A stretch of 50,485 nucleotides of DNA from a virus, in IMG/VR virus record IMGVR_UViG_3300042474_000541, positions 1 to 50,485 of that record. One strand, 5' to 3'. The notes below the pieces were generated by a model. That model was not told the origin of the DNA. It saw nothing but the letters and a program-made list of their open reading frames with translations, and did not search any database. The position numbers and the translations under genes are program-made. Positions 12,981 to 50,086 of the stretch are shown here, in pieces; the stretch's first letter is position 1; each line of letters starts with the position of its first letter.

Positions 12981-12988
12981 TATTTATA
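12981..12988 (+). promoter_or_regulatory. TATTTATA motif upstream of a putative virion gene
   Basis: An exact TATTTATA lies 33 bases before the ATG at 13022 and overlaps an inverted repeat CCTATA...TATAGG (12969-12990). Confidence 0.5.
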
Positions 12989-13021
12989 GGATAAGAATAA
13001 GCATATCTAACAATTAATAAA

Positions 13022-14029
13022 ATGGCAGATTTAAAACCACTTGGTAGTGAAAAACTTAACGGAGATGACAAATTAAAGAGAATTCTCGAGTTAACCTACT
13101 ACAACAATAACCAATCATCAACTAAAAAATCCGAACTAGTGAAGGAGTCAACTAATGGGGGTGTTTATGGTATCGTTAAAGAAAAAGACGGATACTATGT
13201 AAAAAAGGGATTAAACGAAAGTTCTCTTGACTACATTGGTGGTATGTTTATGAAAAATAAAAATAAATTTTCGTCTTATGCTGAGGCATTTAAAAGATTA
13301 GACCTTTTAAAGGGTCAAGAAGATTTACAAGAAGCAACAAAATATGTTTTAAAGCAAACAAAACCACAAGAAGAGTCTCCTTTAGCGGAACCTTCTATGG
13401 ATGCACCTGCAGCACCCGTAGCACCTGACGCTGGTATGGGTGTTCCACCTGCGGCCGAAGAGCCAATGGGGGATGTACCAGCAGAAGAACCAATGGGTGA
13501 ATTACCTCCATCAGGTGGTGAAGAAATGGGTGGTGAAGGGAAACGCTCAGATTATATGGCGGAAGCTCAGAAGTTTGCTGGTAAATTAGGTCAAGAACTA
13601 AGAGATTTACAGGATAAAATGGAAAGTGATGACATCAAATACATTTTAAACATGATTATTTCTGCTGTTGATTTGGATAAATTAGACGACGAGGATATTG
13701 AGGACATTGCTAAGAAATTCGAAAGAGAGGAAGAAGAGATGGGTGGAGAAGAACCAATTACAGAACCATCTGCAGAAGATGAGGTACCTGCTGAAGAACC
13801 AGTAACTGGTGATGAGGACTTAGGTGAAACTATGGATTTATTAAATAGTTTTATAGAATCACCGATTGGTGAGGAAGATACAAACGAATTAGATTTAAGT
13901 AAATTTGCTGACATTGAAGCAAGTGAGGGACAATCTTATGAAGACGATGTTCAAGAACTTGATTTAGACGAAATTAAAAACGATATTAATCAAGCAATTA
14001 GCGAAAAATTAAGTAAATACTTTAAATAA
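13022..14029 (+). CDS. Acidic Pro/Ala-rich protein upstream of the head genes
   Basis: The 335-residue protein has an N-terminal ordered part (about 1-105) containing NGGVYGIVKEKDGYYVKKGLN, a typical short beta-hairpin domain. A Pro/Ala/Met/Glu linker (about 115-175) follows with repeated EEPMG units, then acidic helices to the end. No enzyme motif is visible. It opens a four-gene run before terminase with 1-base to 10-base gaps. A head-associated, scaffold-like or connector role is inferred from position, acidity and the upstream late-type motif; no family was recognised. Confidence 0.6.
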   Translation: MADLKPLGSEKLNGDDKLKRILELTYYNNNQSSTKKSELVKESTNGGVYGIVKEKDGYYVKKGLNESSLDYIGGMFMKNKNKFSSYAEAFKRLDLLKGQEDLQEATKYVLKQTKPQEESPLAEPSMDAPAAPVAPDAGMGVPPAAEEPMGDVPAEEPMGELPPSGGEEMGGEGKRSDYMAEAQKFAGKLGQELRDLQDKMESDDIKYILNMIISAVDLDKLDDEDIEDIAKKFEREEEEMGGEEPITEPSAEDEVPAEEPVTGDEDLGETMDLLNSFIESPIGEEDTNELDLSKFADIEASEGQSYEDDVQELDLDEIKNDINQAISEKLSKYFK

Positions 14030-14030
14030 A

Positions 14031-14432
14031 ATGCATCTTATCTATGTTAATGAAATAGGTTCTGATTATAAAGGACAAAAACAGTACGAATTTATCTTTA
14101 GTAAAAGTACTGAAATTGACATGGATGAGTGGTTTATTATACCAGCATCCGCATCCTCACAACCTAAATCTCCAGAAATGGAATACGTTGATTTAGTTGG
14201 GTTATTAAAAAATACAGACTTACAATTAGAATTAGTTCAAGACTCCGATTATTTCGGAGTTATTGATGCTGTAGATGGGGTGGTTGCGATGGCTTGGGAA
14301 AAATTTGATATGGATTCGGATAGTGAAAGGTTAACCTTTAAATTTGGGGAGTCGATTGATAGTGTAACAAAAAAATTAAAAATAAGAAGTTATCTTCTTA
14401 TAAAAGAGGAAATTAAATTCAAAGAAATATGA
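14031..14432 (+). CDS. Unidentified 133-residue acidic protein
   Basis: It is a compact mixed alpha/beta protein with no signal peptide, membrane segment or low-complexity region. Notable segments are FIFSKSTEIDMDEWFIIPA and GVVAMAWEKFDMDSDSERL. It lies one base after the previous stop and overlaps the next start by 4 bases (ATGA). The position within the pre-terminase run suggests a virion or assembly protein. No family was recognised. Confidence 0.6.
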   Translation: MHLIYVNEIGSDYKGQKQYEFIFSKSTEIDMDEWFIIPASASSQPKSPEMEYVDLVGLLKNTDLQLELVQDSDYFGVIDAVDGVVAMAWEKFDMDSDSERLTFKFGESIDSVTKKLKIRSYLLIKEEIKFKEI

Positions 14433-15262
14433 AAAGGTCAGAATTAGTTGATAAATTAATCAAAGAAGGTATGTCAGAAAAGACATTAGTAAAATTTACT
14501 GATAAACAACTTAACAACTTAGCTGAAAGAATGATAGGTGAAGCTATCACAACTACTGCAGATGCATTATCTAAAAGTGCCGCATTACAAAATTTAGCAA
14601 AAAAACAAGACATTAAACTTGTTGGTGAAGAAGGAGAAGTTTCTGAAGAATTGAAAGGTAATCAAAAGAAATTAGATAAGAACCACAATGGTAAAATTGA
14701 TGGTCAAGATTTTAAAATATTAAGAGGTCAGAAAAAAGAAGTTAAAGAGGGTAAGAAATGTGATAGTTGTGGAGAATCTATAAAGGATTGTAAATGTGAC
14801 CATACACATATGGATGAATCTAAAGAAATAAAAAAATGGATTAATACATTGGCGGAAGAAAGTTTTCATAGTTTTACATCAAAAAATGAAATTATGGAAT
14901 TAATCAATGTTAAATTAAACGAATCAGAAGTACATGAGTACGGTCCAAATGTTAAAACCGGACACAATGGTTTACCAGAATTTATGACATATGATGCAAT
15001 TATGAGTAATGGACCAAAAATTGCACCGAGTAAACCTAAAGTTGACCCAGGTACAAAACCTAACAAACCTAAAACACCATTTCAACCTGGACCAAAGGTA
15101 AACCCTAATCCTAAGGCATTAGGTGAGGATAATCCTAAAATTGCTCCAAGCAAACCAAAGGTTAATCCTGGTACCAAACCAAATAAACCTATAACTCCGC
15201 TTAGACCCGGACCTAAAGTTAATCCTTTCCCTAAAGCAACAACTAAGGGAGATAAAAAATAA
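14429..15262 (+). CDS. Modular protein with EF-hand-like loop, Cys cluster and Pro/Lys tail repeats
   Basis: An N-terminal helical part (1-75) is followed by an EF-hand-like loop LDKNHNGKIDGQDF (about 82-95). Next is a Cys cluster CDSCGESIKDCKCDHTH (about 111-127) that could bind zinc. A helical stretch follows, and the C-terminal 85 residues hold two copies of a unit NGPKIAPSKPKVDPGTKPNKP...PGPKVNP. The tail is basic and extended. The gene overlaps its predecessor by 4 bases and precedes another unidentified structural candidate by 9. A virion role is inferred from context only. Confidence 0.6.
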   Translation: MKRSELVDKLIKEGMSEKTLVKFTDKQLNNLAERMIGEAITTTADALSKSAALQNLAKKQDIKLVGEEGEVSEELKGNQKKLDKNHNGKIDGQDFKILRGQKKEVKEGKKCDSCGESIKDCKCDHTHMDESKEIKKWINTLAEESFHSFTSKNEIMELINVKLNESEVHEYGPNVKTGHNGLPEFMTYDAIMSNGPKIAPSKPKVDPGTKPNKPKTPFQPGPKVNPNPKALGEDNPKIAPSKPKVNPGTKPNKPITPLRPGPKVNPFPKATTKGDKK

Positions 15263-15271
15263 TTTAGAAAT

Positions 15272-16768
15272 ATGAAATTATCTAAGAAAAATTTGTTATC
15301 TTTAATTAACGAAAATTTAAAAGAGATGGCAATGGATTTTGACACTCCCGATAGACCAAATCCCGATTTGCAATCTAAATTGGCTTCAGGAGATACACCC
15401 TTAAAAAAAATACCTTTTCCTAAAACAGGAAATGAACCTAACCAAAATTTTCAAGAACTTTTGGCTTCTGAGAGATATAGACAAATTGTAAATAATGTTA
15501 GACAATATACAAACTACCAAGGTACATTAAACGGTACTGAAATGGGTCCATTATTAACAATGATGTATACTGCACATAACAACATTATAAGACTTGAAAA
15601 TACACATAAAGAGGCTTTAGAACAATTAGCAATTGAAATTGTAAAAGAAGAAATGGGTATTGGTGAGGAAGTTGAGTTTGATGCAAAAATCGTTGGTATG
15701 AATCAAATCGATACGAGTGATTTCAATAGAGAACAGGGTCCTGAACAAAATCCAGATGAAGTTGATGTTGAAGATGAGGAAGACGATGAGGAAAATAACC
15801 AAGAACAACCTCAAGTTAATCCCGAAAATCAAGAAGTTGAAGAAGAATTATATATTGATTTAAAACAATTAGATTTAGAGAGAGCAAAATTAACTTTAAT
15901 TAATAGTATTATCCAAGGAGCATCAAAAAGGGGTCATTATATGTACCAACTTGTTGGTGAGAAACTTAGAGAAATTACAGGTTCTGATGAGTTATATAAT
16001 GACTATGGAGTGATGATGTCGGTTAACGATGCAAACTATTGGCAATTTAGTCCTGCAATGATTAAAGGGGCTTCTGATAGTGTTGCTGGTAAAGTTAAAA
16101 CGGAATTTCCTGGTGATGATGAGACAGGTGAAACCGGTGATGAAGGAGAAGAAGGTGGTGAAGAACAAGAAGAACAAAAAGTTAAAGTGATTGCAAGAGG
16201 AATTAATTTTCCAGTTTTAATACATGAATTAATTAAAGGTGTTTTTGAAATATTAGGTAGTCACGGACAACCGGGAGAATACACAAATCCACAAGATAGG
16301 GCAATGTATCAACAAGCTCAAAAGTTAGAAAGTACATTAGAAAAAGAAATGTGGACATTACTTTTGGGACCTGCAATTTGGGATAGAATTAGAGGACAGT
16401 TTCCAGACGAGGTAATTTTGGAAAATGGTAAGCAATTACAGAATTACATGTTAATGCACATCTTCCAACTACCAGCTAAACAGTTCTTAGTTTTAATGAA
16501 AGAAGTTGTTAGTAATAGTGAAAACGGAAAACGTTTAATGACAGATTTAATGGCATCAATTCAACAAATGTTTAACCAACAAGATTATGAAGAATCTTTG
16601 AATCAATTTAATGATGAATTGGAAACAATGTCAGAAGAGACTGAACCGGATGATTTAAAAGATTTCTTAAAGGGATTTAATATTGATTTATCAAGTGATG
16701 ATGGGGACGATGGAGATGATTTAGATGATTTGTTCAGACAATTAGGTATCGATAAACCTAAAGAATAA
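15272..16768 (+). CDS. Large putative head-assembly or virion protein
   Basis: A 498-residue protein with no recognised family. It begins with an amphipathic segment (KKNLLSLINENLKEMAMDF), has a central acidic run (about 155-190), a helical domain (200-265), a second acidic run (about 275-300) and a hydrophobic helical domain (310-440) with WTLLLGPAIWDRIRG. An Asp/Gly-rich C-terminus follows. The size and position directly before terminase, with a terminator between, suggest a head-related protein expressed late. Its function is unknown. Confidence 0.6.
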   Translation: MKLSKKNLLSLINENLKEMAMDFDTPDRPNPDLQSKLASGDTPLKKIPFPKTGNEPNQNFQELLASERYRQIVNNVRQYTNYQGTLNGTEMGPLLTMMYTAHNNIIRLENTHKEALEQLAIEIVKEEMGIGEEVEFDAKIVGMNQIDTSDFNREQGPEQNPDEVDVEDEEDDEENNQEQPQVNPENQEVEEELYIDLKQLDLERAKLTLINSIIQGASKRGHYMYQLVGEKLREITGSDELYNDYGVMMSVNDANYWQFSPAMIKGASDSVAGKVKTEFPGDDETGETGDEGEEGGEEQEEQKVKVIARGINFPVLIHELIKGVFEILGSHGQPGEYTNPQDRAMYQQAQKLESTLEKEMWTLLLGPAIWDRIRGQFPDEVILENGKQLQNYMLMHIFQLPAKQFLVLMKEVVSNSENGKRLMTDLMASIQQMFNQQDYEESLNQFNDELETMSEETEPDDLKDFLKGFNIDLSSDDGDDGDDLDDLFRQLGIDKPKE

Positions 16769-16772
16769 TATG

Positions 16773-16798
16773 AAGGAGGTTTTAAACCTCCTTTTTTT
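16773..16798 (+). terminator. Rho-independent terminator before the terminase gene
   Basis: AAGGAGGTTT pairs with AAACCTCCTT and is followed by seven T. It separates the pre-terminase run from the terminase-portal unit. The arms contain perfect Shine-Dalgarno and anti-Shine-Dalgarno sequences. Confidence 0.92.
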
Positions 16799-16799
16799 G

Positions 16800-16807
16800 T
16801 ATTTATA
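16800..16807 (+). promoter_or_regulatory. TATTTATA motif 3 nt before the terminase start
   Basis: The exact octamer ends 3 bases before the ATG at 16811. If it is a -7 type box, transcription would start at or next to the ATG, giving a leaderless mRNA. Confidence 0.55.
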
Positions 16808-16810
16808 TAT

Positions 16811-18586
16811 ATGAATTCCAAAATAGAACAACTAAAGGAGTATGCGAAAATTATAAAGGATGCACCATATGCGTTAAAAACATATTTGCAAACCTATGAC
16901 AATACTCAAAAAAAATATGTTCCATTAGAGTTGTTTCCTGACCAAATTCAATTAATTCAGGATTATGAAAATTATAATGAAAACATAACTAGAAAATATA
17001 GACAGGCTGGTGTTACTACGGTAACCGCCGCTTGGATTTCTAAAAAATTACAAACTGCAAAGGAAAGTGAACCAGAAAGGGTTCTTCTTATTGCAAATAA
17101 ACGTGATACTGCGGTAGAGATGGCTAATAAAGTTAGACACTTTATTGAACAATGGCCTGAGTGGATTAATGTTGGGTTTTCACCCGATAAGAACTCGGAG
17201 AGTAGATTTAGATTAAACAATGGGTGTGAGGTTAAGGCGGTAGCAACATCTGCAGATGCGTTACGTGGTTATACACCAACTATACTTGTATTTGATGAGG
17301 CGGCTTATATTGAAGCAGGTGAGGATTTTTGGGCAGCGTCTATGGCGTCCCTATCAACGGGGGGTAAGATTATTCTTATCTCAACACCAAATGGTTATGA
17401 CCCCATATATTATGGTGTTTATGACCAAGCATTACGTGGAATCAATGATTTCCATATAACAGATTTAAGATGGTTTAAAGACCCTCGTTATACTAAAGAT
17501 TTACATTGGGTTAAGTGTCAAGACATCTGTCATTATATGTTGAATAGAGAACAATATAATGATGATGAAGTTGTAATGAAGGATTTTAATCCAGAGAATT
17601 ATAATGAATATATTGAACAAGGATATAAACCGTTCTCTTCTTGGTTTGAATCAATGTCTAAGAAATTTAAATATGATAGACGTAAGATTGCTCAGGAATT
17701 GGAATGCGATTTCTTAGGTTCGGGTGATGGTGTTATTCCGGGTGATATTCAAGAGAACATTGCTAAGAATATGATACGTGTACCTAAAGAAAAATATATG
17801 CAGGGTACATTTTGGCATTGGAAGGAACCCGTTCAGGGACATCGTTACATTATGGGTGTAGATGTTAGTAGAGGTGATAGTGAAGACTTCTCCTCAATTA
17901 ATATTATCGACTTTGATGAAAGGGAACAGGTTGCAGAATACATTGGAAAAATACCTCCTGATGATTTGGCTGCAGTTGCGTATAAATGGGGTGTTTTGTA
18001 TGAGGCATATATTGTTATTGATATTACAGGGGGTATGGGTGTTGCAACGTCTAGGAAGTTACAAGAGATGCAATATAAAAATCTATACATCGATGGGATA
18101 AATACTCAAAATATATGGGAGTGGAATAAAAAGGCCATGGATAAAATCCCCGGTATAAATTTTAACAATAAAAGAACTCAAATAGTTGCTGCTTTCGAGG
18201 AACAATTAAGAAAGGGGTTTTTAGTTAGGTCAAGTAGATTATTAAATGAACTTAATACGTTTGTTTATATAAATGGTAGACCCGACCACATGAAAGGTGC
18301 TCACGATGATGCAATTATGAGTATGTCAATGGCGTTATATGCTGCCGATATGTGTTTCAATCAATTACAAAAGAACGAAAATGCAAATAAAGCAATGTTG
18401 GAATCTTGGACGATGTCAGAAAGATCGTATGAACCCAATAAATCGTTTTATTCTTACGGTACTGCATTTGACCAAATTGGTTCTATGGGGATTGATAATC
18501 AAAATTTATATCACCCAAATAATAATATGAATGTATCAAAGGACGCATATAGAGAACATATGTGGTTATTTGGTAAATCAAAATAA
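16811..18586 (+). CDS. 17: Terminase large subunit (T4 gp17-like)
   Basis: This is the motor that packages DNA into the prohead. The ATPase half has an atypical Walker A RQAGVTT (residues 64-70), Walker B TILVFDE (157-163) and coupling motif STPNG (191-195). The nuclease half has the first metal Asp in IMGVDVSRGDS (about residue 350), a second acidic strand AYIVIDITGGMG, and GAHDDAIMSMSMAL near residue 500. The length of 591 is close to T4 gp17 (610). It starts 12 bases after a terminator with its own motif. No separate small subunit is recognised nearby. Confidence 0.95.
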   Translation: MNSKIEQLKEYAKIIKDAPYALKTYLQTYDNTQKKYVPLELFPDQIQLIQDYENYNENITRKYRQAGVTTVTAAWISKKLQTAKESEPERVLLIANKRDTAVEMANKVRHFIEQWPEWINVGFSPDKNSESRFRLNNGCEVKAVATSADALRGYTPTILVFDEAAYIEAGEDFWAASMASLSTGGKIILISTPNGYDPIYYGVYDQALRGINDFHITDLRWFKDPRYTKDLHWVKCQDICHYMLNREQYNDDEVVMKDFNPENYNEYIEQGYKPFSSWFESMSKKFKYDRRKIAQELECDFLGSGDGVIPGDIQENIAKNMIRVPKEKYMQGTFWHWKEPVQGHRYIMGVDVSRGDSEDFSSINIIDFDEREQVAEYIGKIPPDDLAAVAYKWGVLYEAYIVIDITGGMGVATSRKLQEMQYKNLYIDGINTQNIWEWNKKAMDKIPGINFNNKRTQIVAAFEEQLRKGFLVRSSRLLNELNTFVYINGRPDHMKGAHDDAIMSMSMALYAADMCFNQLQKNENANKAMLESWTMSERSYEPNKSFYSYGTAFDQIGSMGIDNQNLYHPNNNMNVSKDAYREHMWLFGKSK

Positions 18587-18628
18587 GATTCCATTTATCA
18601 ATAATTTAGTTTATATTGTAAAGAAAAG

Positions 18629-18636
18629 TATTTATA
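18629..18636 (+). promoter_or_regulatory. TATTTATA motif 3 nt before the portal start
   Basis: The exact octamer ends 3 bases before the ATG at 18640, the same geometry as at the terminase gene. Confidence 0.55.
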
Positions 18637-18639
18637 TAC

Positions 18640-20475: not shown

Positions 20476-20477
20476 AA

Positions 20478-21408: not shown

Positions 21409-21426
21409 AATATAATAAGTATACTA

Positions 21427-21434: not shown

Positions 21435-21515
21435 TAAAATTATTTTTGGTTTTGTAAGTTTTTTTTCTTATTTTTTAGATAACACCATAAAATAATATAT
21501 AATAATGAGAAATTA

Positions 21516-21955: not shown

Positions 21956-21963
21956 TATTTATA
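21956..21963 (+). promoter_or_regulatory. TATTTATA motif upstream of the prohead protease
   Basis: An exact octamer lies 16 bases before the ATG at 21980. Confidence 0.5.
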
Positions 21964-22717: not shown

Positions 22718-22725
22718 TATTTATA
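22718..22725 (+). promoter_or_regulatory. TATTTATA motif upstream of the scaffold gene
   Basis: An exact octamer (within CTATTTATAAG) lies 23 bases before the ATG at 22749. Confidence 0.55.
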
Positions 22726-25775: not shown

Positions 25776-25783
25776 TATTTATA
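25776..25783 (+). promoter_or_regulatory. TATTTATA motif upstream of a small virion candidate
   Basis: An exact octamer lies 18 bases before the ATG at 25802 and just past the capsid terminator. Confidence 0.5.
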
Positions 25784-26153: not shown

Positions 26154-26185
26154 TTTGGTATATTCCAGAATATTATTTATATTTG
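26154..26185 (+). promoter_or_regulatory. Host-type promoter (TTTG...TATATTTG) before the SAP-like gene
   Basis: TATATTTG at 26178-26185 is preceded by a TTTGG about 20 bases upstream, fitting the Bacteroidota -33/-7 pattern. The box ends 4 bases before the ATG at 26190, implying a leaderless or nearly leaderless mRNA. Confidence 0.65.
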
Positions 26186-26189
26186 CATT

Positions 26190-26486
26190 ATGGAATACGA
26201 GAATCTTAGATTAGATGTTCTTATTAAACTCATTGATGAAAGGGGTATTTCTTGTAAAAGCAAGAAGGATGAGATTATAAAATACCTTAAATTGGACGAT
26301 GAGGATAAATATATCAGAGAAACCACTTATATGAAGGATGGTAATGGATATGCTGTGGGTATTGATATTAAAAATAGAGACCATTTACTACAAATGAGTA
26401 AATTAATCGAGAAAAAAGAAGGGAAACATTTAAATAGGTACGAGGATAATCGTATTATGTTTTGGTCACCACAAAAATTAATATAA
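26190..26486 (+). CDS. SAP-like DNA-binding protein
   Basis: The 98-residue protein opens with a helix-turn-helix-like pattern fitting the SAP motif: YENLRLDVLIKLIDERGISCKSKKDEIIKYLKLDD (about residues 3-37), including the conserved hydrophobic spacing and a Gly-Ile-x-x-x-x-K turn. The C-terminal part has a small beta-alpha unit (YAVGIDIKNRDHLLQMSKLIEKKEGKHL). SAP modules bind AT-rich DNA. It overlaps the deaminase start by one base, so the two are co-translated. The function is unknown beyond possible DNA binding. Confidence 0.6.
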   Translation: MEYENLRLDVLIKLIDERGISCKSKKDEIIKYLKLDDEDKYIRETTYMKDGNGYAVGIDIKNRDHLLQMSKLIEKKEGKHLNRYEDNRIMFWSPQKLI

Positions 26487-29655: not shown

Positions 29656-29666
29656 CTCTTTTTATT

Positions 29667-29674
29667 TATAAATA
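29667..29674 (-). promoter_or_regulatory. TATTTATA motif upstream of the beta-rich virion gene
   Basis: An exact octamer on the minus strand lies 11 bases before the ATG at 29655. Confidence 0.55.
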
Positions 29675-33680: not shown

Positions 33681-33688
33681 TATAAATA
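33681..33688 (-). promoter_or_regulatory. TATTTATA motif 3 nt before the baseplate operon's first gene
   Basis: An exact octamer on the minus strand ends 3 bases before the ATG at 33677, as at terminase and portal. It lies within the 3' end of the sigma-factor gene just to its right (33692-34390) minus a few bases. Confidence 0.55.
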
Positions 33689-33691: not shown

Positions 33692-34390
33692 TTATTCTAA
33701 AAATCCACCCAAAATCCCGTCGTACATCTTTTTGAATTTTTTTAGAGATATTCTAATTTCTTTGGTGGAAAGGGATGTCATTTCTCGTAATGATAATAAA
33801 ATTAGGTTTTTGTTAAATTTATTACCGTCACCGACTTGGAATATTCTATCAAAATTATTAAAAATTTCAAGTAATGCATAACCTAATTTCTGTTCGTTAT
33901 CTGTTAGGTCTTCTTTTTCCATAAACTCCTCTAAGGATATTGTTAGTTTAATAATAACATCCCGATAGTCTACGATATACTCATCAATAACATAGGATAA
34001 ATCCGTTCTATCCTCAATGTCAGATGATATATCATCATAAGAAACTTGTCTATTCTGTTCTTTTGTGTCTTTCTGTATTGCCCCCATTAGGTAGTTTTTA
34101 CAGATTGTCCCAAAATAGGAGTATGCTTTATGATTTTTTGTGTGATCAAATTTGTGAATTTTAGTAATTAAAAACGACATTGTATCGTTATGAATTTCCT
34201 CAAATTCTAAATCTTTTCTGTAAAGTTTATAACGTCGAATAATTGATTCGACCATTATAATTAGGGGTTCTCGTAAATATTCGTTGAATATCTTGTTTTT
34301 TTCTGCATCGTCACTACTTTCAAGGTAACTGACTACCGCCTTCTCTTGATCCTCCCCAAAATAAATTTTTTGGGTACGTTTTCTCGGCAT
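33692..34390 (-). CDS. Sigma-70-like factor, probable late sigma (T4 gp55-like)
   Basis: Region 2 of sigma factors is recognisable (about residues 30-115): LIIMVESIIRRYKLY, DLEFEEIHNDTMSFLITKIHKFDHTKNHKAYSYFGTICKNYLMGAIQK. This matches the core-binding helix and the -10 recognition helix with the aromatic-rich F-x-T/Y-x(n)-I pattern. A region-4-like helical part (about 165-230) ends with TSLSTKEIRISLKKFKKMYDG. Regions 1.1 and 3 are missing, as in phage late sigmas. It is the last gene of a tightly coupled operon, with its ATG inside the preceding stop. It is the natural candidate to read the TATTTATA box. Confidence 0.75.
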   Translation of the reverse strand: MPRKRTQKIYFGEDQEKAVVSYLESSDDAEKNKIFNEYLREPLIIMVESIIRRYKLYRKDLEFEEIHNDTMSFLITKIHKFDHTKNHKAYSYFGTICKNYLMGAIQKDTKEQNRQVSYDDISSDIEDRTDLSYVIDEYIVDYRDVIIKLTISLEEFMEKEDLTDNEQKLGYALLEIFNNFDRIFQVGDGNKFNKNLILLSLREMTSLSTKEIRISLKKFKKMYDGILGGFLE

Positions 34391-37894: not shown

Positions 37895-37902
37895 TATAAA
37901 TA
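37895..37902 (-). promoter_or_regulatory. TATTTATA motif upstream of phoH
   Basis: An exact octamer on the minus strand lies 34 bases before the phoH ATG, in the gap after the dUTPase stop. Confidence 0.45.
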
Positions 37903-41606: not shown

Positions 41607-41609
41607 AAA

Positions 41610-41987: not shown

Positions 41988-41988
41988 A

Positions 41989-42486: not shown

Positions 42487-43222
42487 TATCTTTTAAATGT
42501 TTCATAATATCATTAATTGATAATTTATGACTATTCATTGTATTTTTCAATGATTTTAATTGTTTTAAAACAATTGGGTTAATTTCTTTTTCTTCTGTTT
42601 GTTCGTCTTTTGAAACGATTTCATTGTCTTTTGCCCTTTTAGATAAAACACTTTCGATATATTCCTCCATGAATTTTTTAGGATTTTCAACCAATCTTAC
42701 CTTATCTGCTGGTAATTTTTTATCATAACCCATTTGAGACAACCTATCTTCAGCTTCAGGTTCATCTAAACCTAATTCACCCTTAAAATGGTCTTCAGCA
42801 TCCTCATAATCAGCATCTTTTGCCATCGTGTCGTCAAATCCTAACGCTTTACTCATATCCGATTCGGCCCAATATCTCATTGTTGATCCGCCAACATTAG
42901 CCATTCTACCCATAGAACCATGAGCTGCCTTTGCAACATCATCACTTGTTTTCTTTTGTGTGACACCTTTCGTATTAAAATCAGTTGGTTTTTTACCTGT
43001 AGCAATATTTCCGTATTTGTCTACAATCTCATCGACCTCTGTCTCTACCTTATCAGGTATTTCGTCATAATTTGTTTTATCTGAGAATTCCTTAGCCCAT
43101 TTACTCCATTTCTTCTTTTCTTTCTTAGGTTTACCCTTTTCATTCGCCTTAGCGTAGAAGAACCTTTGTTGTGCTTTTGATGCAAATTTCTCCTCAATTA
43201 CCTGTTTTATAAAATTATTCAT
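42479..43222 (-). CDS. Protein with DUF3008-like SKAQQRFF N-terminus
   Basis: The 247-residue protein begins with NNFIKQVIEEKFASKAQQRFFYAKANEKGKPKKEKKKWSKWAKEFSDKT (about 1-50), which fits the DUF3008-like SKAQQRF(F/M) motif frequent in phage proteins. The middle is flexible, with a Gly/Met-rich segment and an acidic helical region. The C-terminal part (about 200-247) is helical (VLKQLKSLKNTMNSHKLSINDIMKHL). The role is unknown. It is divergent from the fibre-like gene at 43276, with mirror-image late-type motifs between them. Confidence 0.6.
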   Translation of the reverse strand: MNNFIKQVIEEKFASKAQQRFFYAKANEKGKPKKEKKKWSKWAKEFSDKTNYDEIPDKVETEVDEIVDKYGNIATGKKPTDFNTKGVTQKKTSDDVAKAAHGSMGRMANVGGSTMRYWAESDMSKALGFDDTMAKDADYEDAEDHFKGELGLDEPEAEDRLSQMGYDKKLPADKVRLVENPKKFMEEYIESVLSKRAKDNEIVSKDEQTEEKEINPIVLKQLKSLKNTMNSHKLSINDIMKHLKDNE

Positions 43223-43237
43223 CTAAATCGATTTTAT

Positions 43238-43245
43238 TATAAATA
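43238..43245 (-). promoter_or_regulatory. TATTTATA motif for the leftward gene in a divergent pair
   Basis: An exact octamer (within GATATTTATA) on the minus strand lies 15 bases before the ATG at 43222. Confidence 0.55.
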
Positions 43246-43262
43246 TCAAATCTTATGAAAGA

Positions 43263-43270
43263 TATTTATA
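43263..43270 (+). promoter_or_regulatory. TATTTATA motif for the rightward gene in a divergent pair
   Basis: An exact octamer (again GATATTTATA) ends 5 bases before the ATG at 43276. Its position argues against the in-frame ATG at 43255 as the start. Confidence 0.55.
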
Positions 43271-43275
43271 TAAAC

Positions 43276-44769
43276 ATGAATAGACAGAATATTTTAAATT
43301 TTTATGGGTCAAAATTAGATTTAAGGTTGGATTCTTCCGAATTATATGATTTTGAGTTGAGTAAAACTCAAGGTGACTATGATGAGGAAGTGTTAGATTT
43401 AAACACTCCTATAGTTTATTCTACGTTGGTTATCGATACCGATTTGACTGATTTTGATTGTGTTAGGACTACTATTACATTAACAGAATACGATAATAGG
43501 GTAAATAACTCAATTTATCCATTTTCTGGATTAACAACCACCATATCTTATACCGGATTTACTAACTTTATATCCAATTATCATAAAAGGGTAATATTGA
43601 ATAATGACGTTTACATTTTTGAGGGTATTACGGGAGAGGTTCATTATATGAGAATAACGGGGTATAATAATCCATTATCTTTTAACCCAAATATGGGTAA
43701 TTCAAGTGAAGAAATCATTAACAAGTTTGATAATGAATACTTAGAATGTACGTCTAAATTAACAACATTGGGTTCAAGAGCTTGTTGTCCAATAACCTCA
43801 AAATTATCAAGTAAACCTTGGGCTTACCAATTTTATCAACCGGAGACTGATTGCACCTCACCTATTATAAAACAAAGAACAGAAAAAGGATGGACTTTGG
43901 ATTTTGTTTTTAATAGGGAAAGTCTTTCTTGGTCAAATGGTAATATATTCTACTATTATGGTGTTAGAGGTAGTACCAGTACGCCAGAATTAGCCGATAA
44001 TAGTTTAACATTCAAATTTACAAGTGATGGAAAAATAGAATATAACGCTATTAGATATAGTGGGAATTGTGACCCATCTTCAGGATATACTGAAAATTAT
44101 TACACGGAGGTTGGGGTCACTCCAACATTATGTACTACAGGTTTAACTGAAGATTTTAATGTTACAATTGTTTTTGATAGATACAAACACTATCAAGATT
44201 GTGAACTTGAAAATGAGGGTGGGTTAAATGATTTAATCGTCGGACCTCGCCCAATTCAATATACTGATAATGAGGTTACGGCCGTCACATCGACTCAAAT
44301 AACAACAGGTTATTTGATAACTAACTCATCTGAGGTTTTAACTGGAGCAACCCCAAATTACCAATATGCACAAGAGTTAAATAAAAAATGGAATTCAGAA
44401 AGACAAAAAAGATTGGGAGTATTAAAAATATACTTAAATGGTAATTTAATTTATAAGAAGGAAAACTTTGAGGAGGTAATTGCCTCAAATATAGGTATTC
44501 AACCTTTTATACAATCTTGGGGAGGAGTTAATAATGAAAGTGGTGGGGCTTGTTGTTTTAATATAAAATCAATAAAATATTTTGAGGAGCCTTTAAATTT
44601 CCCAAGAGTAAGACACCATTACATAACCGAAATCAAACCAAATTTTGATATTATCGAATGTTATGGAGATTGTTTAGATACATTAAGTGGTGTATTTTCA
44701 AACACATTACTGACAGAGGATGGTGAAGACATAATAACTGAAAATAATAATGATATCATACTATTTTAA
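43276..44769 (+). CDS. Fibre/adhesin-like protein with LamG-type features
   Basis: From the chosen start (MNRQNILNFYGSK) it has 497 residues; seven more are possible from 43255. It is beta-rich and Cys-containing, with segments GWTLDFVFNRESLSWSNGNIFYYYGVRG and TEDFNVTIVFDRY...RLGVLKIYLNGNLIYKKENFEEV, typical of a concanavalin/LamG-type lectin fold. There is no signal peptide. Position next to a Gly/Ser/Thr-rich fibre gene suggests a receptor-binding or fibre-tip component. Cys pairs (CCPIT, CC in GGACCF) are unusual in a cytoplasmically folded virion protein. Confidence 0.6.
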   Translation: MNRQNILNFYGSKLDLRLDSSELYDFELSKTQGDYDEEVLDLNTPIVYSTLVIDTDLTDFDCVRTTITLTEYDNRVNNSIYPFSGLTTTISYTGFTNFISNYHKRVILNNDVYIFEGITGEVHYMRITGYNNPLSFNPNMGNSSEEIINKFDNEYLECTSKLTTLGSRACCPITSKLSSKPWAYQFYQPETDCTSPIIKQRTEKGWTLDFVFNRESLSWSNGNIFYYYGVRGSTSTPELADNSLTFKFTSDGKIEYNAIRYSGNCDPSSGYTENYYTEVGVTPTLCTTGLTEDFNVTIVFDRYKHYQDCELENEGGLNDLIVGPRPIQYTDNEVTAVTSTQITTGYLITNSSEVLTGATPNYQYAQELNKKWNSERQKRLGVLKIYLNGNLIYKKENFEEVIASNIGIQPFIQSWGGVNNESGGACCFNIKSIKYFEEPLNFPRVRHHYITEIKPNFDIIECYGDCLDTLSGVFSNTLLTEDGEDIITENNNDIILF

Positions 44770-44771
44770 AC

Positions 44772-44779
44772 TATTTATT
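44772..44779 (+). promoter_or_regulatory. TATTTATT motif 3 nt before a fibre gene
   Basis: A one-mismatch copy ends 3 bases before the ATG at 44783, the leaderless geometry again. Confidence 0.45.
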
Positions 44780-44782
44780 TAA

Positions 44783-45586
44783 ATGGCAGGAAAAAAAATA
44801 ACAGAACTATCTAGTTCAATCGCTCCAAGTTTAACCGGAGTAACAGCGGTTGCGTTTGGCGGTACAACGTATAAATCAACATTGTCCACACTTAGACAAA
44901 TTTTAGTTGATAGTGGTTCACATAGATTCACTGGTAGTCAATTTATTAGTGGTAGTTTAACATTAACGGGGTCTATGCCTAATTTAACCATAGGTAGTGG
45001 AACATATCATGTAGATAATCCTGAAATATTACACGTACAAAATAGTGGTAGTTTTAATATTGCACATTTTGAGGCAAATAATCAATATTACGCACAAGTA
45101 AACATAAAAAATACAAATTCGGGTAATAATTCAAGTACTGATTTAGTTTTAACTGCGGATAATGGTACCGAATCAAACCATTATGTTGATTTAGGTATAA
45201 ATTCATCAACATATACAGGTGGATTAGTTGGATTAGTTAACGATGCCTACCTTTTAAATGTTGGTAAAGACATGTACGTCGGTACTGTAGGTGGTACTGG
45301 ACATCCCGCTAATTTAAAATTGTTTGCACAAAATTTATGGGAAAATCCACAAATATCAATTAGTGGATCTCGTCAAATAAGTTTTAACACAGGTTCAGTA
45401 TCAAGTGATTACACATATGAATTTAGCGGTAGTGTTAAATTAAATAATAATTTAAAAACGGACGGATTTACAATATTGTCAAATGTAACCTCAAGTTTTA
45501 CAAATGACGCGGCAGCCGCGGCTGGTGGTGTACCATTACAAGGACTATATAGAAGTGGTAGTTACGTTTTAATTAGATTAACATAA
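44783..45586 (+). CDS. Tail-fibre-like protein
   Basis: The 267-residue protein opens with AGKKITELSSSIAPSLTGVTAVAFGG, the common N-terminus of fibre and neck-fibre proteins in T4-like phages. It has repeated TGSxxxSGSLTLTGS motifs (about 48-66), then beta-rich Gly/Ser/Asn/Thr turns (GTYHVDNPEILHVQNSGSFNI), and ends with GVPLQGLYRSGSYVLIRLT, a C-terminal pattern of trimeric fibres. It lies 13 bases after the LamG-like gene. It is probably a trimeric fibre or whisker component. Confidence 0.7.
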   Translation: MAGKKITELSSSIAPSLTGVTAVAFGGTTYKSTLSTLRQILVDSGSHRFTGSQFISGSLTLTGSMPNLTIGSGTYHVDNPEILHVQNSGSFNIAHFEANNQYYAQVNIKNTNSGNNSSTDLVLTADNGTESNHYVDLGINSSTYTGGLVGLVNDAYLLNVGKDMYVGTVGGTGHPANLKLFAQNLWENPQISISGSRQISFNTGSVSSDYTYEFSGSVKLNNNLKTDGFTILSNVTSSFTNDAAAAAGGVPLQGLYRSGSYVLIRLT

Positions 45587-45587
45587 T

Positions 45588-45956
45588 ATGGAATTTTTTA
45601 TCAGACAGGGTGCAAGTGACCCAATATTAAAAATGAAATTGATTGATGATGGAAAGAATGATAAGTCATCATTTAATGATATGCTCGAAAATGCAGACAT
45701 CACATTTGAAATGTCTGATGTTAAAACAGGAGAACCCGTAATATTGAATAGTGATTGTTTAATTACAACGAGAACAAAATTATATAACCAAACAACCGAG
45801 GAATATTATATTACACATAGATTTACTGAAACCCAAACTTCAGAGATGGGTAAATTTGAGGGTAAAATAACTATACAATTTTTAGACACAAACGGAAACC
45901 CAACAACAAAATTGATATTACCCGTTAAAGAAAAATTATACATCAACATTTTTTAA
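45588..45956 (+). CDS. Small baseplate/fibre-associated protein (BppU-like N-domain)
   Basis: The 122-residue protein has a beta-sandwich pattern: FFIRQGASDPILKMKLIDDG, FNDMLENADITFEMSDVKTGEPVI, EEYYITHRFTETQTSEMGKFEGKITIQFLDTNG. That order resembles the N-terminal domain of baseplate upper proteins (BppU) that link fibres to baseplates. It follows the fibre gene by one base. A linker role between baseplate and fibre is inferred. Confidence 0.55.
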   Translation: MEFFIRQGASDPILKMKLIDDGKNDKSSFNDMLENADITFEMSDVKTGEPVILNSDCLITTRTKLYNQTTEEYYITHRFTETQTSEMGKFEGKITIQFLDTNGNPTTKLILPVKEKLYINIF

Positions 45957-45972
45957 TACCAATTTTAATTCT

Positions 45973-45980
45973 TATATTTG
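45973..45980 (+). promoter_or_regulatory. Host-type promoter box upstream of DNA polymerase
   Basis: TATATTTG fits the Bacteroidota TAnnTTTG box and is preceded by T-rich sequence. It lies 67 bases before the polymerase ATG, so the leader is long compared with its neighbours. Confidence 0.55.
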
Positions 45981-46000
45981 TAGATGAAAACAAGGCAAAC

Positions 46001-46015
46001 TACTGATTTTCAGTA
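46001..46015 (+). promoter_or_regulatory. Hairpin in the DNA polymerase leader
   Basis: TACTGA pairs with TCAGTA around TTT, 32 bases before the polymerase ATG and downstream of the promoter box. T4 and RB69 polymerases bind a leader hairpin in their own mRNA to repress translation; a similar role is possible but only by analogy. Confidence 0.35.
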
Positions 46016-46047
46016 AGCTAATACGTCACATTTAAAAAAATTATAAG

Positions 46048-48951
46048 ATGAAAGAAGTTATCTCTCAGGAAGTTATAGAAAACTTCCTTAACGGTGGCGA
46101 CCCCGAAGAGTTCATTGTCGGAGTCGAATACGACTACCCCACCAACACAATTTACAAAATTATTCAGGACCCCGAAAAGGGAAAGATTGTAAAATCAGAT
46201 TCATTTACCCCGTTTATGTGGGTTGGTGATTTATCAGGTTTAGGTTTTTACAATAATTCAAAATCCATACAAAAAAAACGTATGGGTGAATTTGGTATTC
46301 TAATTGAAAAATTAGATACTCATGGAGATGAACGACTTGAGTCGGGTATGAAATATTTGGTAAAAAGTCTTAAATCGTATACCGATTTAATTTCATTTTT
46401 CAGAATGGGTGGTATTAATCCGTGGGATGAAAAATATAGACAACATTTTACGGTTTTATCACCGGTAGAACAATATCTTGTTCAAACGAAAAAAAGATTA
46501 TTCAAAGGTATTGATGATTATGGTGGTGTTAATCGATTTGTATTTGATATTGAAACCACAGGTCTTGACCCTGAAACTTGTGTTATTATATTAATTGGGG
46601 TTAAAGATAATCGTGGTTTAAACGTAACAATTCCCGCCTTTGGGGAAGACGGAGAAAAAAAATGTATTGAAAGATTTTTCCAATATATAAGGGACTTAAA
46701 ACCAACAATCATTGCTGGTTACAACTCCGCATTTTTTGATTGGCCGTTCATATTAAAACGTGCGGAAATTCTTGGTGTTGATGTTGATGGAATGACTCAA
46801 ATTTTCACGTCCCAAGGAATGAAAGAAAAAGAGGGAATGTTAAAATTGGCAAATGAAGTTGAGCCATATAAACAACATATTATTTGGGGGTTTAATATTA
46901 TTGATATTGCACATTCAGTACGACGTGCTCAAGCAATCAATTCTGAAATTAAATCATGGGGTTTGAAATACATTACCACATATTTGGAAAAAGAAAAACC
47001 TAATCGTGTGTATGTTGAAGGTAGTAAAATATCAAAAATATATCTCGATAATGAAAGTTATTATGTAAATCCAAAAACAGGTGGATATAAACAAATAGGT
47101 GAGCCAGGTACCGAAGATTTATTACGAAAATATCCAGGTAAATTTGAGATTTGGCCAGGTAGGAAAATTGTTGAGCAATATCTTGACGATGACCTTTATG
47201 AGACAATGATTGTTGATGATTCATTTTCTCAATCAACATTCTTATTATCAAAACTTGTACCGACAACGTATGAGAGGATTGCAACAATGGGTACTGCAAC
47301 ATTATGGAAAATCATTATGTTAGCTTGGTCTTATGAAAATAACTTAGCGGTTCCATCTAAGGATGAGAAACGTGCTTTCACAGGAGGTTTATCTCGTTTA
47401 TTAAATGTTGGTTATGCGAAGAATATTGTTAAATTTGACTACTCATCACTCTACCCGTCAATTCAATTAGTGTATGATGTGTTTCCGGCATGTGATGTTA
47501 TGGGAGTACAAAAATCAATGTTAAAATATTTCCGTAACATTCGTATTAAGTATAAACATCTTGCCAGTGAATTAAAAGATAGTAATCCTGTTGCTGCGGA
47601 AATGTATGACCGTAAACAATTACCAATCAAAATTTTTATTAACGCATACTTCGGTTCACTATCCGCTCCACACGTATTCCCTTGGGGAGAAATGGATTCA
47701 GGTGAAACCATTACTTGCATTGGTCGTCAGTGTTTACGTATGATGATTATGTTCTACATGCAAAAAGGTTATAAACCTCTTGTAATGGACACGGACGGTG
47801 TGAACTTTGAAACACCTGATAGTGCATTAGACGCTGTGTATGTTGGTAAAGGTTTAAATGAATTAGTAATAGAAGGAAAAGAATATAAAGGTATTGAAGC
47901 TCACACTGCGGAATTCAATGATATATTCATGAGAGGTGAAATGGGTTTAGATATTGACTATACCGCACCTTCTTGTATTAACGTATCCCGTAAAAATTAT
48001 ATTATTAAATTAATTAAGAAAGGTAAGGAGAAAATTAAATTAACAGGTAACACAATTAAATCAAAAAAATTACAAACATATATTGTTGAATTTTTGGATG
48101 AAGGTTTTAAATATTTGTTAAATGGTGACGGACATTCTTTTGTGGAGCTATATTACAATTACGTAGAAAAAATTTATAATAAAGAAATACCATTATCGAA
48201 AATTGCAAATAAAGCTCGTGTTAAACAATCTATTAACGAATATAAAAAACACGTACAAAAAACAACTAAATCTGGTTCTTTAATGTCTCGTCAGGCACAC
48301 ATGGAATTAATAATTCAAAATGATTATCCTGCCGGTTTAGGTGATACAATATACTATGTTAATAACGGTATAAAAAAATCATCTGGTGATGTGGAAAGAA
48401 AAACTAGATGGACAAAAAAAGAAATGATTGAGTATGTTGAAACTATTGGTAGTGAAATGCCAAAAGACCACGCGGTTATAAATGTTAATTGTTACATGAT
48501 TGATGAGAAGGAAATTACAAATAATCCTGATTTAAAAGGTGATTATAATGTTCCACGTTATCTTAGTAATTTTAACAAACGTGTTGAACCTTTATTAGTT
48601 GCGTTTAACCCAAATATAAGAGAAGATATTCTTATTGAGGACCCAAAAGATAGACAATACTTTACTAAATTACAATGTGAACTTGTTAATGGTTATCCAT
48701 TAAAGGAAAGTGGACAAGATAAGTTTGATGAGGTAATGACACTTTCAGATAGTGAAGTTATTTTTTGGAATAAAGTGGGTAGAGATCCTTACTTTATGTA
48801 TGTTGAAGATAGTCTAAAATTAGTTGACCAACATTGGGTGGAACATAATAGAAAAGTGGTAACACTACAAGCTGAAAGTACAATCAGTAATGAGGATGAA
48901 ATCATCGAAAATGATGGACACGATTACGCTTACCACGCAATAGAAGTTTAG
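46048..48951 (+). CDS. 43: DNA polymerase, family B (T4 gp43-like)
   Basis: The replicative polymerase is 967 residues (T4 gp43 is 898). The 3'-5' exonuclease is shown by FDIETTGLDP (Exo I, about 166-175), IIAGYNSAFFDWPF (Exo II), and a Tyr-x-x-x-Asp region near 375. The polymerase motifs are FDYSSLYPSIQ (motif A, about 464), LPIKIFINAYFGSL (motif B, with Asn-Ala in place of Asn-Ser) and VMDTDGVNF (motif C, about 580, with Gly after the catalytic Asp pair instead of Ser). The C-terminal 380 residues hold the palm/thumb. It converges on the neck gene; the stops overlap. Confidence 0.95.
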   Translation: MKEVISQEVIENFLNGGDPEEFIVGVEYDYPTNTIYKIIQDPEKGKIVKSDSFTPFMWVGDLSGLGFYNNSKSIQKKRMGEFGILIEKLDTHGDERLESGMKYLVKSLKSYTDLISFFRMGGINPWDEKYRQHFTVLSPVEQYLVQTKKRLFKGIDDYGGVNRFVFDIETTGLDPETCVIILIGVKDNRGLNVTIPAFGEDGEKKCIERFFQYIRDLKPTIIAGYNSAFFDWPFILKRAEILGVDVDGMTQIFTSQGMKEKEGMLKLANEVEPYKQHIIWGFNIIDIAHSVRRAQAINSEIKSWGLKYITTYLEKEKPNRVYVEGSKISKIYLDNESYYVNPKTGGYKQIGEPGTEDLLRKYPGKFEIWPGRKIVEQYLDDDLYETMIVDDSFSQSTFLLSKLVPTTYERIATMGTATLWKIIMLAWSYENNLAVPSKDEKRAFTGGLSRLLNVGYAKNIVKFDYSSLYPSIQLVYDVFPACDVMGVQKSMLKYFRNIRIKYKHLASELKDSNPVAAEMYDRKQLPIKIFINAYFGSLSAPHVFPWGEMDSGETITCIGRQCLRMMIMFYMQKGYKPLVMDTDGVNFETPDSALDAVYVGKGLNELVIEGKEYKGIEAHTAEFNDIFMRGEMGLDIDYTAPSCINVSRKNYIIKLIKKGKEKIKLTGNTIKSKKLQTYIVEFLDEGFKYLLNGDGHSFVELYYNYVEKIYNKEIPLSKIANKARVKQSINEYKKHVQKTTKSGSLMSRQAHMELIIQNDYPAGLGDTIYYVNNGIKKSSGDVERKTRWTKKEMIEYVETIGSEMPKDHAVINVNCYMIDEKEITNNPDLKGDYNVPRYLSNFNKRVEPLLVAFNPNIREDILIEDPKDRQYFTKLQCELVNGYPLKESGQDKFDEVMTLSDSEVIFWNKVGRDPYFMYVEDSLKLVDQHWVEHNRKVVTLQAESTISNEDEIIENDGHDYAYHAIEV

Positions 48952-50063
48952 ATTACATTAAACGGGCTTGGCATTGCTCTAAACTTAAGTGCTTTATTTA
49001 AATTCTCCGCTTCTGAACCTTTTCTTTCAAGAATTTTTTCAGGGCGGAGTCTTTCTAATCTAGCCATAAGTTCCTCAACCAATTTCATTCTTTCGTCTTT
49101 ACCTTCTGTTAGTAAAGAACTATAATCTAACTTAACCGCACTATCGGGAACTTGTAAATCACCCGAAAATTTACCCCAAATACGACCTAATCCTTCTTTA
49201 GAATAACCTATTAGGTATTTTCTTACCCAGTTTTGGGATGGTTTGTTTAATTTATCCCACGTAAGTTCTTCGGTCATAACATCAGAAGGTAATTTAATAA
49301 CATCTTTGTTTTTTTGTAGACAAGTGTCTCTATCCATGGTATCATAATACCAATACCATACTTGATAGTTTTTATTAGCGTTATTACCAAAATCGTATTT
49401 TCCACCAGGCACATTGTAAAGGTGAATATATTTTTTACCTTCAGGTCCCGCGGTAATTCTATATGTTAAATCCCCACCAATTATTCTATTTTTTATACTT
49501 CTGTCTTGCATTCTCAATAGAAGGTCGAAAGCCGGTAACATAAAATATGAACCTGAAGAACCAACCTGAGCAAATCCCCCCACACCACCAAAACCAACAC
49601 CCCCAAGACCACCGAAACCACCTAAAAATGGGTCAACAATTGAATCGGTTAATTCTGCCCTTGTAAACCATAATAGTTCATTTATTTCACGACCCGCAGG
49701 TATTTCATATGTCTGTGTACCCCCCGTAAGAGTAAAATAATCTTTTTTAAGTTCGTTATCACCACCAGCCTGTAAACCAACTATTTTGGAATATGAATAA
49801 GTGTATTGTGTCTCATAATCTAAACTTCTTGTGGTAAACGCTCTAGAAAGGGATTGTGTATCAACATCTAATCCCGCCAATGCAGACCATTGTGATTCAA
49901 TCAACCAATCACTAACGTATTGTTCATATTCAGACAAGGAAAACTCTAAAAAAGTATCCATTTGTTCTTCAGTAAGTTCAATACCACGAACGGGCATCCC
50001 CAATAGGTGAAAAACCTGTGTATATAATTTGTCCTTTTCAGATTGTGAAATAATTGTAGCCAT
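48948..50063 (-). CDS. Neck protein (T4 gp13-like) with Gly-rich insert
   Basis: The N-terminal 60 residues (VFHLLGMPVRGIELTEEQMDTFLEFSLSEYEQYVSDW) match the gp13-type head-completion pattern LG-x-P-V-x-x-(I/V)-E-(L/V)-T-E-E-Q. A middle segment YFTLTGGTQTYEIPAGREINELLWF also fits. A Gly/Phe-rich insert at about residues 145-169 (FLGGFGGLGGVGFGG and onward) breaks the domain. The rest is mixed with aromatic clusters (QVWYWYYDTMDRD). T4 gp13 is 309 residues; this has 371. The protein seals the head before tail joining. Confidence 0.65.
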   Translation of the reverse strand: MATIISQSEKDKLYTQVFHLLGMPVRGIELTEEQMDTFLEFSLSEYEQYVSDWLIESQWSALAGLDVDTQSLSRAFTTRSLDYETQYTYSYSKIVGLQAGGDNELKKDYFTLTGGTQTYEIPAGREINELLWFTRAELTDSIVDPFLGGFGGLGGVGFGGVGGFAQVGSSGSYFMLPAFDLLLRMQDRSIKNRIIGGDLTYRITAGPEGKKYIHLYNVPGGKYDFGNNANKNYQVWYWYYDTMDRDTCLQKNKDVIKLPSDVMTEELTWDKLNKPSQNWVRKYLIGYSKEGLGRIWGKFSGDLQVPDSAVKLDYSSLLTEGKDERMKLVEELMARLERLRPEKILERKGSEAENLNKALKFRAMPSPFNVI

Positions 50064-50078
50064 AATTTGGTATATTTC

Positions 50079-50086
50079 AATAAATA
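50079..50086 (-). promoter_or_regulatory. TATTTATT motif upstream of the neck gene
   Basis: A one-mismatch copy on the minus strand lies 15 bases before the neck ATG at 50063. Confidence 0.45.

Follow-up and report, generated by a model that had tools for sequence, protein, structure and literature searches.

A probable late promoter box, TATTTATW, in T4-like phages related to Flavobacterium phage immuto

Introduction

Late transcription in bacteriophage T4 is a textbook system. The T4 late promoter consists of a lone −10-like box (PMC2988020; PMC7892883), which has the consensus TATAAATA, spans positions −13 to −6 in T4 numbering (PMC2988020) and is read by the late sigma factor gp55. T4 gp55 inserts A−12 against Y97, A−9 against N13 and H95, and A−8 against T99 (PMC7892883). 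Phage KVP40 and a cyanophage have late-box consensus sequences like that of T4, and Aeromonas phage Aeh1 is a T4 relative in which the consensus is altered at −13/−12 (PMC2988020).

Here we analyze the complete virus record IMGVR_UViG_3300042474_000541 (50,485 bases, 62 genes, 5.1% intergenic DNA; hereafter the window), for which a sequence-only reading had proposed that the octamer TATTTATA is a phage-specific promoter box. The window encodes terminase, portal, prohead protease and major head protein of T4-type families (PHROG). In a collection of annotated phages the best-ranked portal relatives were Microcystis phage Mel-JY01 (45% identity over 62%), an uncultured jumbo phage and Flavobacterium phage immuto (37% over 64%), and among uncultivated stretches there were at least 594 portal relatives, of which the best 80 were kept. 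We infer a Bacteroidota host from this kinship only. Our analysis indicates that TATTTAT followed by A or T (TATTTATW) very probably serves as late promoter box in immuto-related T4-like phages, with a gp55 homologue as the proposed reader.

Results

The box is enriched upstream of genes on the coding strand

All 13 exact TATTTATA copies and four TATTTATT copies named by the sequence-only reading were located in the window. On both strands together there are 21 exact copies, compared with a mean of 10.4 (standard deviation 2.9) in 100 shuffled sequences, one of which also reached 21; by itself the total is only a modest excess, about twice the expectation. Placement is more informative, with 16 of the 21 copies intergenic, four inside genes and one overlapping a gene end (start 43276 used). 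Within 60 nucleotides (nt) upstream of genes, TATTTATA is the most frequent octamer on the coding strand, preceding 14 of the 62 genes, compared with 4 for its reverse complement. Sequences simulated with Markov models of order 1, 2 and 3 gave means of 0.9–1.8, and 14 was reached in none of the 500 simulations at each order, so that the enrichment near starts survives correction for composition. The sequence-only reading had warned of chance hits in such AT-rich DNA and had taken a fixed 3-nt spacing as the stronger signal; the strong signal lies in the intergenic and upstream placement. The coding strands of the window are A-rich, with an AT skew that tracks gene direction; composition alone would thus favour TATAAATA. 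With an automatic gene caller restricted to ATG starts, TATTTATA was found upstream of 12 of 63 genes. The box observed in the window is confirmed and exceeds chance.

Two copies stand apart. The exact copy at 26174, before gene 26190, is kept in the leaders of 2 of 17 relatives, and an overlapping TATATTTG is present in 14 of the 17; the TATTTATA copy is probably incidental, and the TATATTTG element at 26174–26190 is probably a host-type promoter. The plus-strand copy at 29663 overlaps the minus-strand box at 29667 and is its mirror image.

Words upstream of automatically called ATG-only genes were ranked by their upstream count multiplied by the share of their copies that lie upstream. TATTTATA ranked first in the window, in immuto (24/218 genes) and in the clade genomes G001 (24/139) and G002 (29/213), and second, behind the overlapping word ATATTTAT, both in clade genome G004 (28/162) and in the part of Mel-JY01 that was read (6/42). 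The T4 late region, which served as a control of the method, returned TATAAATA first (12/53 genes). Since G001 holds a near-copy of the window, its counts are not independent; G002, G004 and immuto come closer to independent repeats. On the sense strand, 81 of 514 distinct clade leaders contain TATTTATA vs 16 for TATAAATA, and in immuto 24 and 6 of 224, respectively, do so.

The box is conserved before orthologous genes

We compared leaders of orthologous genes, omitting orthologues whose alignment starts beyond residue 6 and counting identical leaders once. The minimum alignment was 30% of the query in the general survey and 180 residues in the terminator/mirror and portal-leader analyses, and at least 60 nt of upstream sequence were required (80 nt in the terminator/mirror analysis). 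TATTTATW proved to be conserved at most of the sites (Table 1). Before the portal gene the exact TATTTATA occurs in 46 of 48 distinct leaders, and the one-mismatch site before gene 11963 corresponds to TATTTATW in 14 of 16. Gene 22749 is designated scaffold-like by its position and a weak match to immuto. As negative controls, TATTTATW was found in 0 of 23 gp23 leaders and 0 of 3 leaders of gene 31191; gp23, without a box of its own, may be transcribed with the scaffold gene. The sites before 3801, 6529 and 25802 are listed as candidates because one or two relatives were comparable, and for 44783 no relative was found. Together with the upstream enrichment and the strand bias, this orthologous conservation supports well the proposal of a phage-specific promoter box.

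Table 1. Late boxes and associated features in the window (gap, nucleotides between box and start codon)
Feature	Coordinates	Strand	Details
Late box	16800..16807	+	3 nt before ATG of terminase large subunit (16811; PHROG); TATTTATW in 38/40 distinct leaders, gaps 3–6
Intrinsic terminator	16772..16794	+	T-tract enters terminase late box; hairpin and T-tract in 39/39 distinct leaders
Late box	18629..18636	+	3 nt before portal ATG (18640); TATTTATW in 48/48 distinct leaders, gaps 3–5
Late box	21956..21963	+	Prohead protease (21980), gap 16; TATTTATW in 32/32 distinct leaders
Late box	22718..22725	+	Scaffold-like gene (22749), gap 23; TATTTATW in 23/23 distinct leaders
Late box	12981..12988	+	Gene 13022, gap 33; 13/13 distinct leaders, gaps 33–38
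Late box	33681..33688	-	3 nt before ATG of 33677 (126 aa, function unassigned), directly after gp55-like gene; TATTTATW in 48/49 distinct leaders, gaps 3–6
Late box	29667..29674	-	Gene 29655, gap 11; TATTTATW in 7/7 leaders, exact in 5
Late box	43238..43245	-	Gene 43222, gap 15, divergent with 43263; 3/3 leaders
Late box	43263..43270	+	Start 43276, gap 5; single comparable relative has box, gap 7
Late box	37895..37902	-	PhoH-like gene (TTG start 37860), gap 34; 2/2 leaders
Candidate late box	3777..3784	+	Gene 3801, gap 16, after hairpin and T-tract (by eye); kept in G001, other relative unalignable at start
Candidate late box	6553..6560	-	Gene 6529, gap 23; kept in G001, 1/2 relatives
Candidate late box	25776..25783	+	Gene 25802, gap 18; G001 sole comparable relative
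gp55-like late sigma factor, 232 aa	33692..34390	-	PHROG late sigma, E-value 2.7e-4; proposed reader of box

The box precedes virion genes and has no upstream partner

Genes of immuto were assigned to classes by product name; three of the 24 late genes are lysis genes, 125626 (annotated as 'DNA polymerase phi-like') was counted as late, as scaffold, by its position, and the 38 others include 106221, annotated as hypothetical. An exact box within 60 nt upstream was found for 8 of the 24 annotated virion and lysis genes vs none of the 38 other genes (p 2e-4). The eight are terminase, portal, tail sheath, tail completion, hub, tape measure, a tail spike and a small tail-fibre gene. Among 20 labelled genes of G001, a count that excludes PhoH, whose TTG start was missed by the ATG-only caller, the box precedes 8 of 12 late genes vs none of 8 replication (other) genes (p 0.005).

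Alignment of 82 clade sites on the box revealed no partner element upstream, the maximum being 0.18 bits besides the adjacent base (0.35 bits); for 24 immuto sites the adjacent base had 0.95 bits and the next highest upstream position 0.48 bits. The same alignment applied to the TATATTTA[GC] promoters of immuto recovered TTG in 17/17, ending 20 nt upstream of the TATATTTA[GC] box. In immuto (MW353175) the region from 22 to 77 kb shows this promoter-like AGTTGC...TTCnTATATTTAGGTAT arrangement with an upstream TTG before 17 genes, mostly small, and it is probably a host-like, early promoter class.

The box shares its frame with the T4 late box

TATTTATA and TATAAATA differ only at positions 4 and 5, where AA is replaced by TT. 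Because the TAT..ATA arms are mutually complementary, this change automatically yields the reverse complement. The sequence-only reading was thus correct that TATTTATA is the reverse complement of the T4 late box and not the identical element, but the T4 box should not have been set aside on that account, as the same TAT..ATA frame occurs here in phages whose portal, prohead protease, major head protein and late sigma proteins are of T4 type. A T4 box used on the opposite strand was considered and rejected, for the sense strand carries TATTTATA with starts downstream. On T4 numbering the changed bases are −10 and −9.

A gp55 homologue is encoded in these phages

The protein encoded at 33692–34390 matched 24 of the 37 aligned members of the PHROG late sigma family, and its match to Pfam sigma region 2 was below the Pfam cut-off. 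Among the open reading frames supplied, a profile of its family recovered T4 gp55 (E-value 5e-6), a hypothetical protein of immuto (3e-20) and a protein of Rhodothermus phage RM378 (1.5e-5); against the PDB its top match was T4 gp55 (E-value 0.0023). The AlphaFold model had moderate confidence (mean predicted local distance difference test score, pLDDT, 69.9). Residues 8–115 of the model could be superposed on gp55 (7d7c_F) with a Z-score of 11.0 and a root-mean-square deviation (rmsd) of 2.8 over 101 residues, ranking second among matches that were largely sigma factors, and a Foldseek search with the whole model returned sigma factors prominently, but with E-values of 0.03 or worse, not significant. 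The homologue was found in 10 of 13 relative contigs.

At 232 aa the protein is longer than T4 gp55 (185 aa), with about 90 additional C-terminal residues past the aligned sigma region. These contain a conserved helical domain (33692–33979, minus strand) that is not seen in T4 gp55 and that, modelled separately, reached a pLDDT of 80.6. Assignment of this domain to sigma region 4 was tried and rejected: region 4 of sigma-A came second (Z 5.2, rmsd 3.5 over 67 residues) to an unrelated protein (Z 5.6), and Foldseek E-values exceeded 1. Pfam searches with the domain gave nothing for four clade sequences and one chance-level match for immuto. The modelled resemblance to region 4 is weak and may serve as a lead only.

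Residues contacting the T4 box were compared in an alignment of 17 gp55 proteins, 7 from this group and 10 T4-type, grouped by kinship, with the late box itself checked in T4 only. The residue aligned to Y97, which stacks on A−12, is Tyr in 7/7 and 9/10, respectively. At the position of N13, a −9 contact, Asn is present in 0/7 members of this group vs 9/10 T4-type proteins. The loss of N13 would fit an altered −9 contact, although this agreement between box and gp55 is suggestive only, and the group shares ancestry, so that the residue changes represent one or few events. H95 was rejected as a specificity residue because it varies in both groups and cyanophage gp55s also have Phe there.

Many boxes lie 3–5 nt before ATG

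The sequence-only reading emphasized a fixed 3-nt spacing. Five of the 17 sites it named do end 3 nt before ATG, but the spacing is not fixed; boxes show a peak at 3–5 nt, a broad group at about 10–23 nt and a tail to about 40 nt and beyond. Of the 14 exact boxes counted in the window, three are at 3 nt and one at 5 nt, and the preference becomes strong only once relatives are added. The nearest boxes lie 3–5 nt before ATG in 13/36 cases in G001, 15/37 in G002 and 16/44 in G004 (p <1e-7 each, uniform null); pooled, 44/117 boxes are at 3–5 nt, 73/117 further than 5 nt and one at 0–2 nt. A scan without gene calls found 15, 21 and 12 ATGs at offsets 3, 4 and 5, with most other offsets in single figures and a second hump at about 13–19. 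No 3–5 nt peak appeared with the mirrored box, or with GTG or TTG starts. In immuto the class is small (3/24 exact boxes, at 4 nt). The 12 T4 late boxes that we found are located 14–28 nt before ATG, none at 3–5 nt.

Shine-Dalgarno-like words precede 5/139, 4/213 and 6/162 clade genes and 9/221 immuto genes, no more often than they occur in control stretches further upstream, compared with 20/30 in T4. Since they are not enriched, the promoter can abut the start codon, unlike in T4. The argument that Bacteroidota promoter geometry would place the transcription start at the ATG agrees with the 4–5 nt from the −7 element to the start site in F. johnsoniae (PMC6847099), and this box-to-start geometry would put the 5' end at or within 1–2 bases of the ATG. 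The start codon itself is ATG in 48/48 portal leaders, 39/40 terminase leaders (the other being an alignment offset) and 49/49 leaders of 33677.

At the terminase gene the stems of the terminator covary, differing by compensatory changes, and end 2–9 nt before the box in the 37 leaders with both measured, forming a terminator-promoter-start codon unit (16772–16807). With the terminator abutting the box there is little room for an upstream start except by read-through, and the terminase mRNA is likely leaderless, judging by geometry and terminator. For portal, codons 2–30 have a coding pattern of variation immediately after the ATG, which supports the annotated start as the right one. Depletion of A at −3 as an indicator of leaderless mRNA (0.44 vs about 0.58, p 0.054) is confounded by the T-rich box and was not used.

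Additional observations in the window and its relatives

The segment 43222–43276 holds divergent late boxes back to back, and the 43222 leaders also carry the mirrored copy in 3/3 relatives. The window proteins also include a PhoH-like protein, a family B DNA polymerase and a phage-encoded Clp-type AAA+ ATPase (9358–11376, minus strand; PHROG ATP-dependent protease). Family B polymerases are likewise encoded by G001, G002, G004, Mel-JY01 and RM378, and immuto has family A polymerases; neither family was found in the fragment G003. Mel-JY01, whose recorded host is Microcystis, has the box and is similar to these phages in its portal and gp55; either the phage has switched hosts or the host label deserves a check.

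Discussion

Our results point to TATTTATW as a late promoter box related to that of T4. With the T4 late promoter it shares a single 8-bp AT box without a −35 partner, at a distance from the start site that is presumed, a position before virion genes and not replication genes, a protein of the gp55 type with sigma region 2, present in these phages, and A at −12 and −8. It differs in having TT for AA at −10/−9, in the extra C-terminal helical domain of the gp55 homologue, and in that gp33 and gp45 were undetected by profile in the seven records searched. RM378 is similar in its gp20-like portal, its gp55 homologue and a T-rich TATTTAAA before 8 of 53 called genes, including the annotated tail sheath and tail tube; TATTTAAA ends differently, and terminase and portal are not among the eight genes in the 41 kb read. 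TATTTAAA may be yet another form of the late box. Among the open-access papers listed by our searches, judged by title and abstract, we found no description of this box or of leaderless late mRNAs in such phages; PMC9004378 mentions leaderless and late promoter once each.

We propose that the gp55 homologue would join the host RNA polymerase and read the box at −10, as T4 gp55 reads TATAAATA, the two central bases of the box and part of the gp55 contact surface having presumably changed together. At boxes 3–5 nt before ATG, transcription would start at or 1–2 bases from the start codon and produce a leaderless mRNA, and the remaining boxes would give ordinary short leaders. The full combination, in which TATAAATA was rewritten to TATTTATA along with the −9 contact of gp55, about a third of the late units, including those of terminase and portal, are leaderless, and the system is maybe gp33-free by virtue of a domain like sigma region 4, is tentative and, taken as a whole, rather doubtful.

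Several observations weigh against the late-promoter interpretation. The exact T4 consensus TATAAATA was not what we found, and for this reason we call the box a variant acting like a T4 late promoter and not a T4 late promoter itself. Only 8 of the 24 late genes annotated in immuto have it upstream, a count that includes genes within operons. The position of T99 is Thr in 8/10 T4-type proteins vs 0/7 here, though A−8 is unchanged, which indicates that contact changes are not one-to-one. Profiles for gp33 (phrog_254), a short divergent protein, and for the gp45 clamp (phrog_223) each matched in 0 of 7 records; Mel-JY01, with a strong gp44-type loader, is among those without a clamp match, and the clamp profile is thus probably insensitive. 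In a comparative study, jumbo phages of its group 2, which has Bacteroidetes members, are reported to carry a gp33 orthologue (PMC7824862), counting against a gp33-free system. In the 49 kb that were read of the jumbo phage LR756508, which has the same gp55 type, none of 52 genes has TATTTATW upstream. With regard to spacing, the eight boxes of Mel-JY01 show no 3–5 nt cluster, and the three clade genomes share ancestry, so their tests are not fully independent.

It is possible that the boxes are promoters while the class near the ATG is not leaderless, owing to starts further upstream (a second promoter or read-through) or to slipping initiation. Another conserved element, TATATTNT, precedes the box in 45 of 48 portal leaders (about 18605–18636 in the window), at a distance of 9 nt in 40 of them; it might be a tandem promoter giving a leadered portal mRNA. 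Gene 33677 lies directly behind the gp55 gene and may be co-transcribed with it. Leaders longer than 10 nt are reported for 87% of F. johnsoniae transcripts with a probable promoter (PMC6847099), and leaderless mRNAs make up 5.5% in F. psychrophilum (PMC9723704). The terminator abutting the terminase box in all 39 leaders and the sharp lower limit of the spacing at 3 nt argue in the opposite direction. Leaderless terminase and portal mRNAs had both been predicted by the sequence-only reading; the first is likely, and the second, given TATATTNT, plausible only.

That the box is a promoter for a host sigma factor, namely a relaxed version of TAHHTTTG, which forms the −7 element of Bacteroidota sigma-A promoters (−12 to −5), is improbable. 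The two have in common the initial TA and a T-rich centre, and the 4–5 nt to the start site in Flavobacterium matches the 3–5 nt peak (PMC6847099). The box lacks TTTG, however, and with it the near-invariant final G: sense TATTTATG occurs in 9 of the 514 leaders vs 81 for TATTTATA, and none of the eleven best one-mismatch variants listed is altered at box position 6. The box also favours late genes, and immuto has its separate host-like promoter class. For F. psychrophilum promoters, sigma-54, TAnnTTGY and CGT motifs are described in addition to TAnnTTTG, and none of these resembles the box (PMC9723704). Strict TAHHTTTG was also tried as a second promoter class in the clade and rejected, as it had no strand bias (sense/antisense 10/11, 16/14 and 6/7).

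Slightly less probable still is a box read by another phage protein, with the gp55 homologue having a different job. The link between homologue and box is not direct, and LR756508 has the protein without the box in the part read. Against this, T4 uses gp55 as its late promoter factor, homologues of gp55 are core genes of T4 relatives (PMC2988020), and the gp55 homologue is the only sigma-like protein in the subset of window proteins searched.

A translation signal in the mRNA, which could account for the clustering near starts, is very improbable: most copies lie more than 5 nt upstream (73/117), the terminase copy follows a terminator, most genes, gp23 included, have no box, and the box is rich in T, while it is A at −3 that promotes initiation in Flavobacterium (PMC6847099). 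Chance in AT-rich DNA, in keeping with a total just twice the expectation, is refuted by the orthologous conservation; the upstream enrichment, the repeats in relatives and the spacing also speak against it.

The late-transcription review cited above compares phages of Proteobacteria and cyanobacteria (PMC2988020). In the phages described here, namely uncultivated relatives and one cultured Flavobacterium phage, the box and its presumed sigma factor have apparently changed together, which amounts to a natural experiment on DNA recognition by gp55. In B. thetaiotaomicron about 3.7% of leaders are reported to be shorter than 10 nt. If the class near the ATG is leaderless, the mRNAs for terminase and perhaps portal would belong to a type seldom seen in the presumed host group. 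The box also allows late transcription units to be annotated in this phage group.

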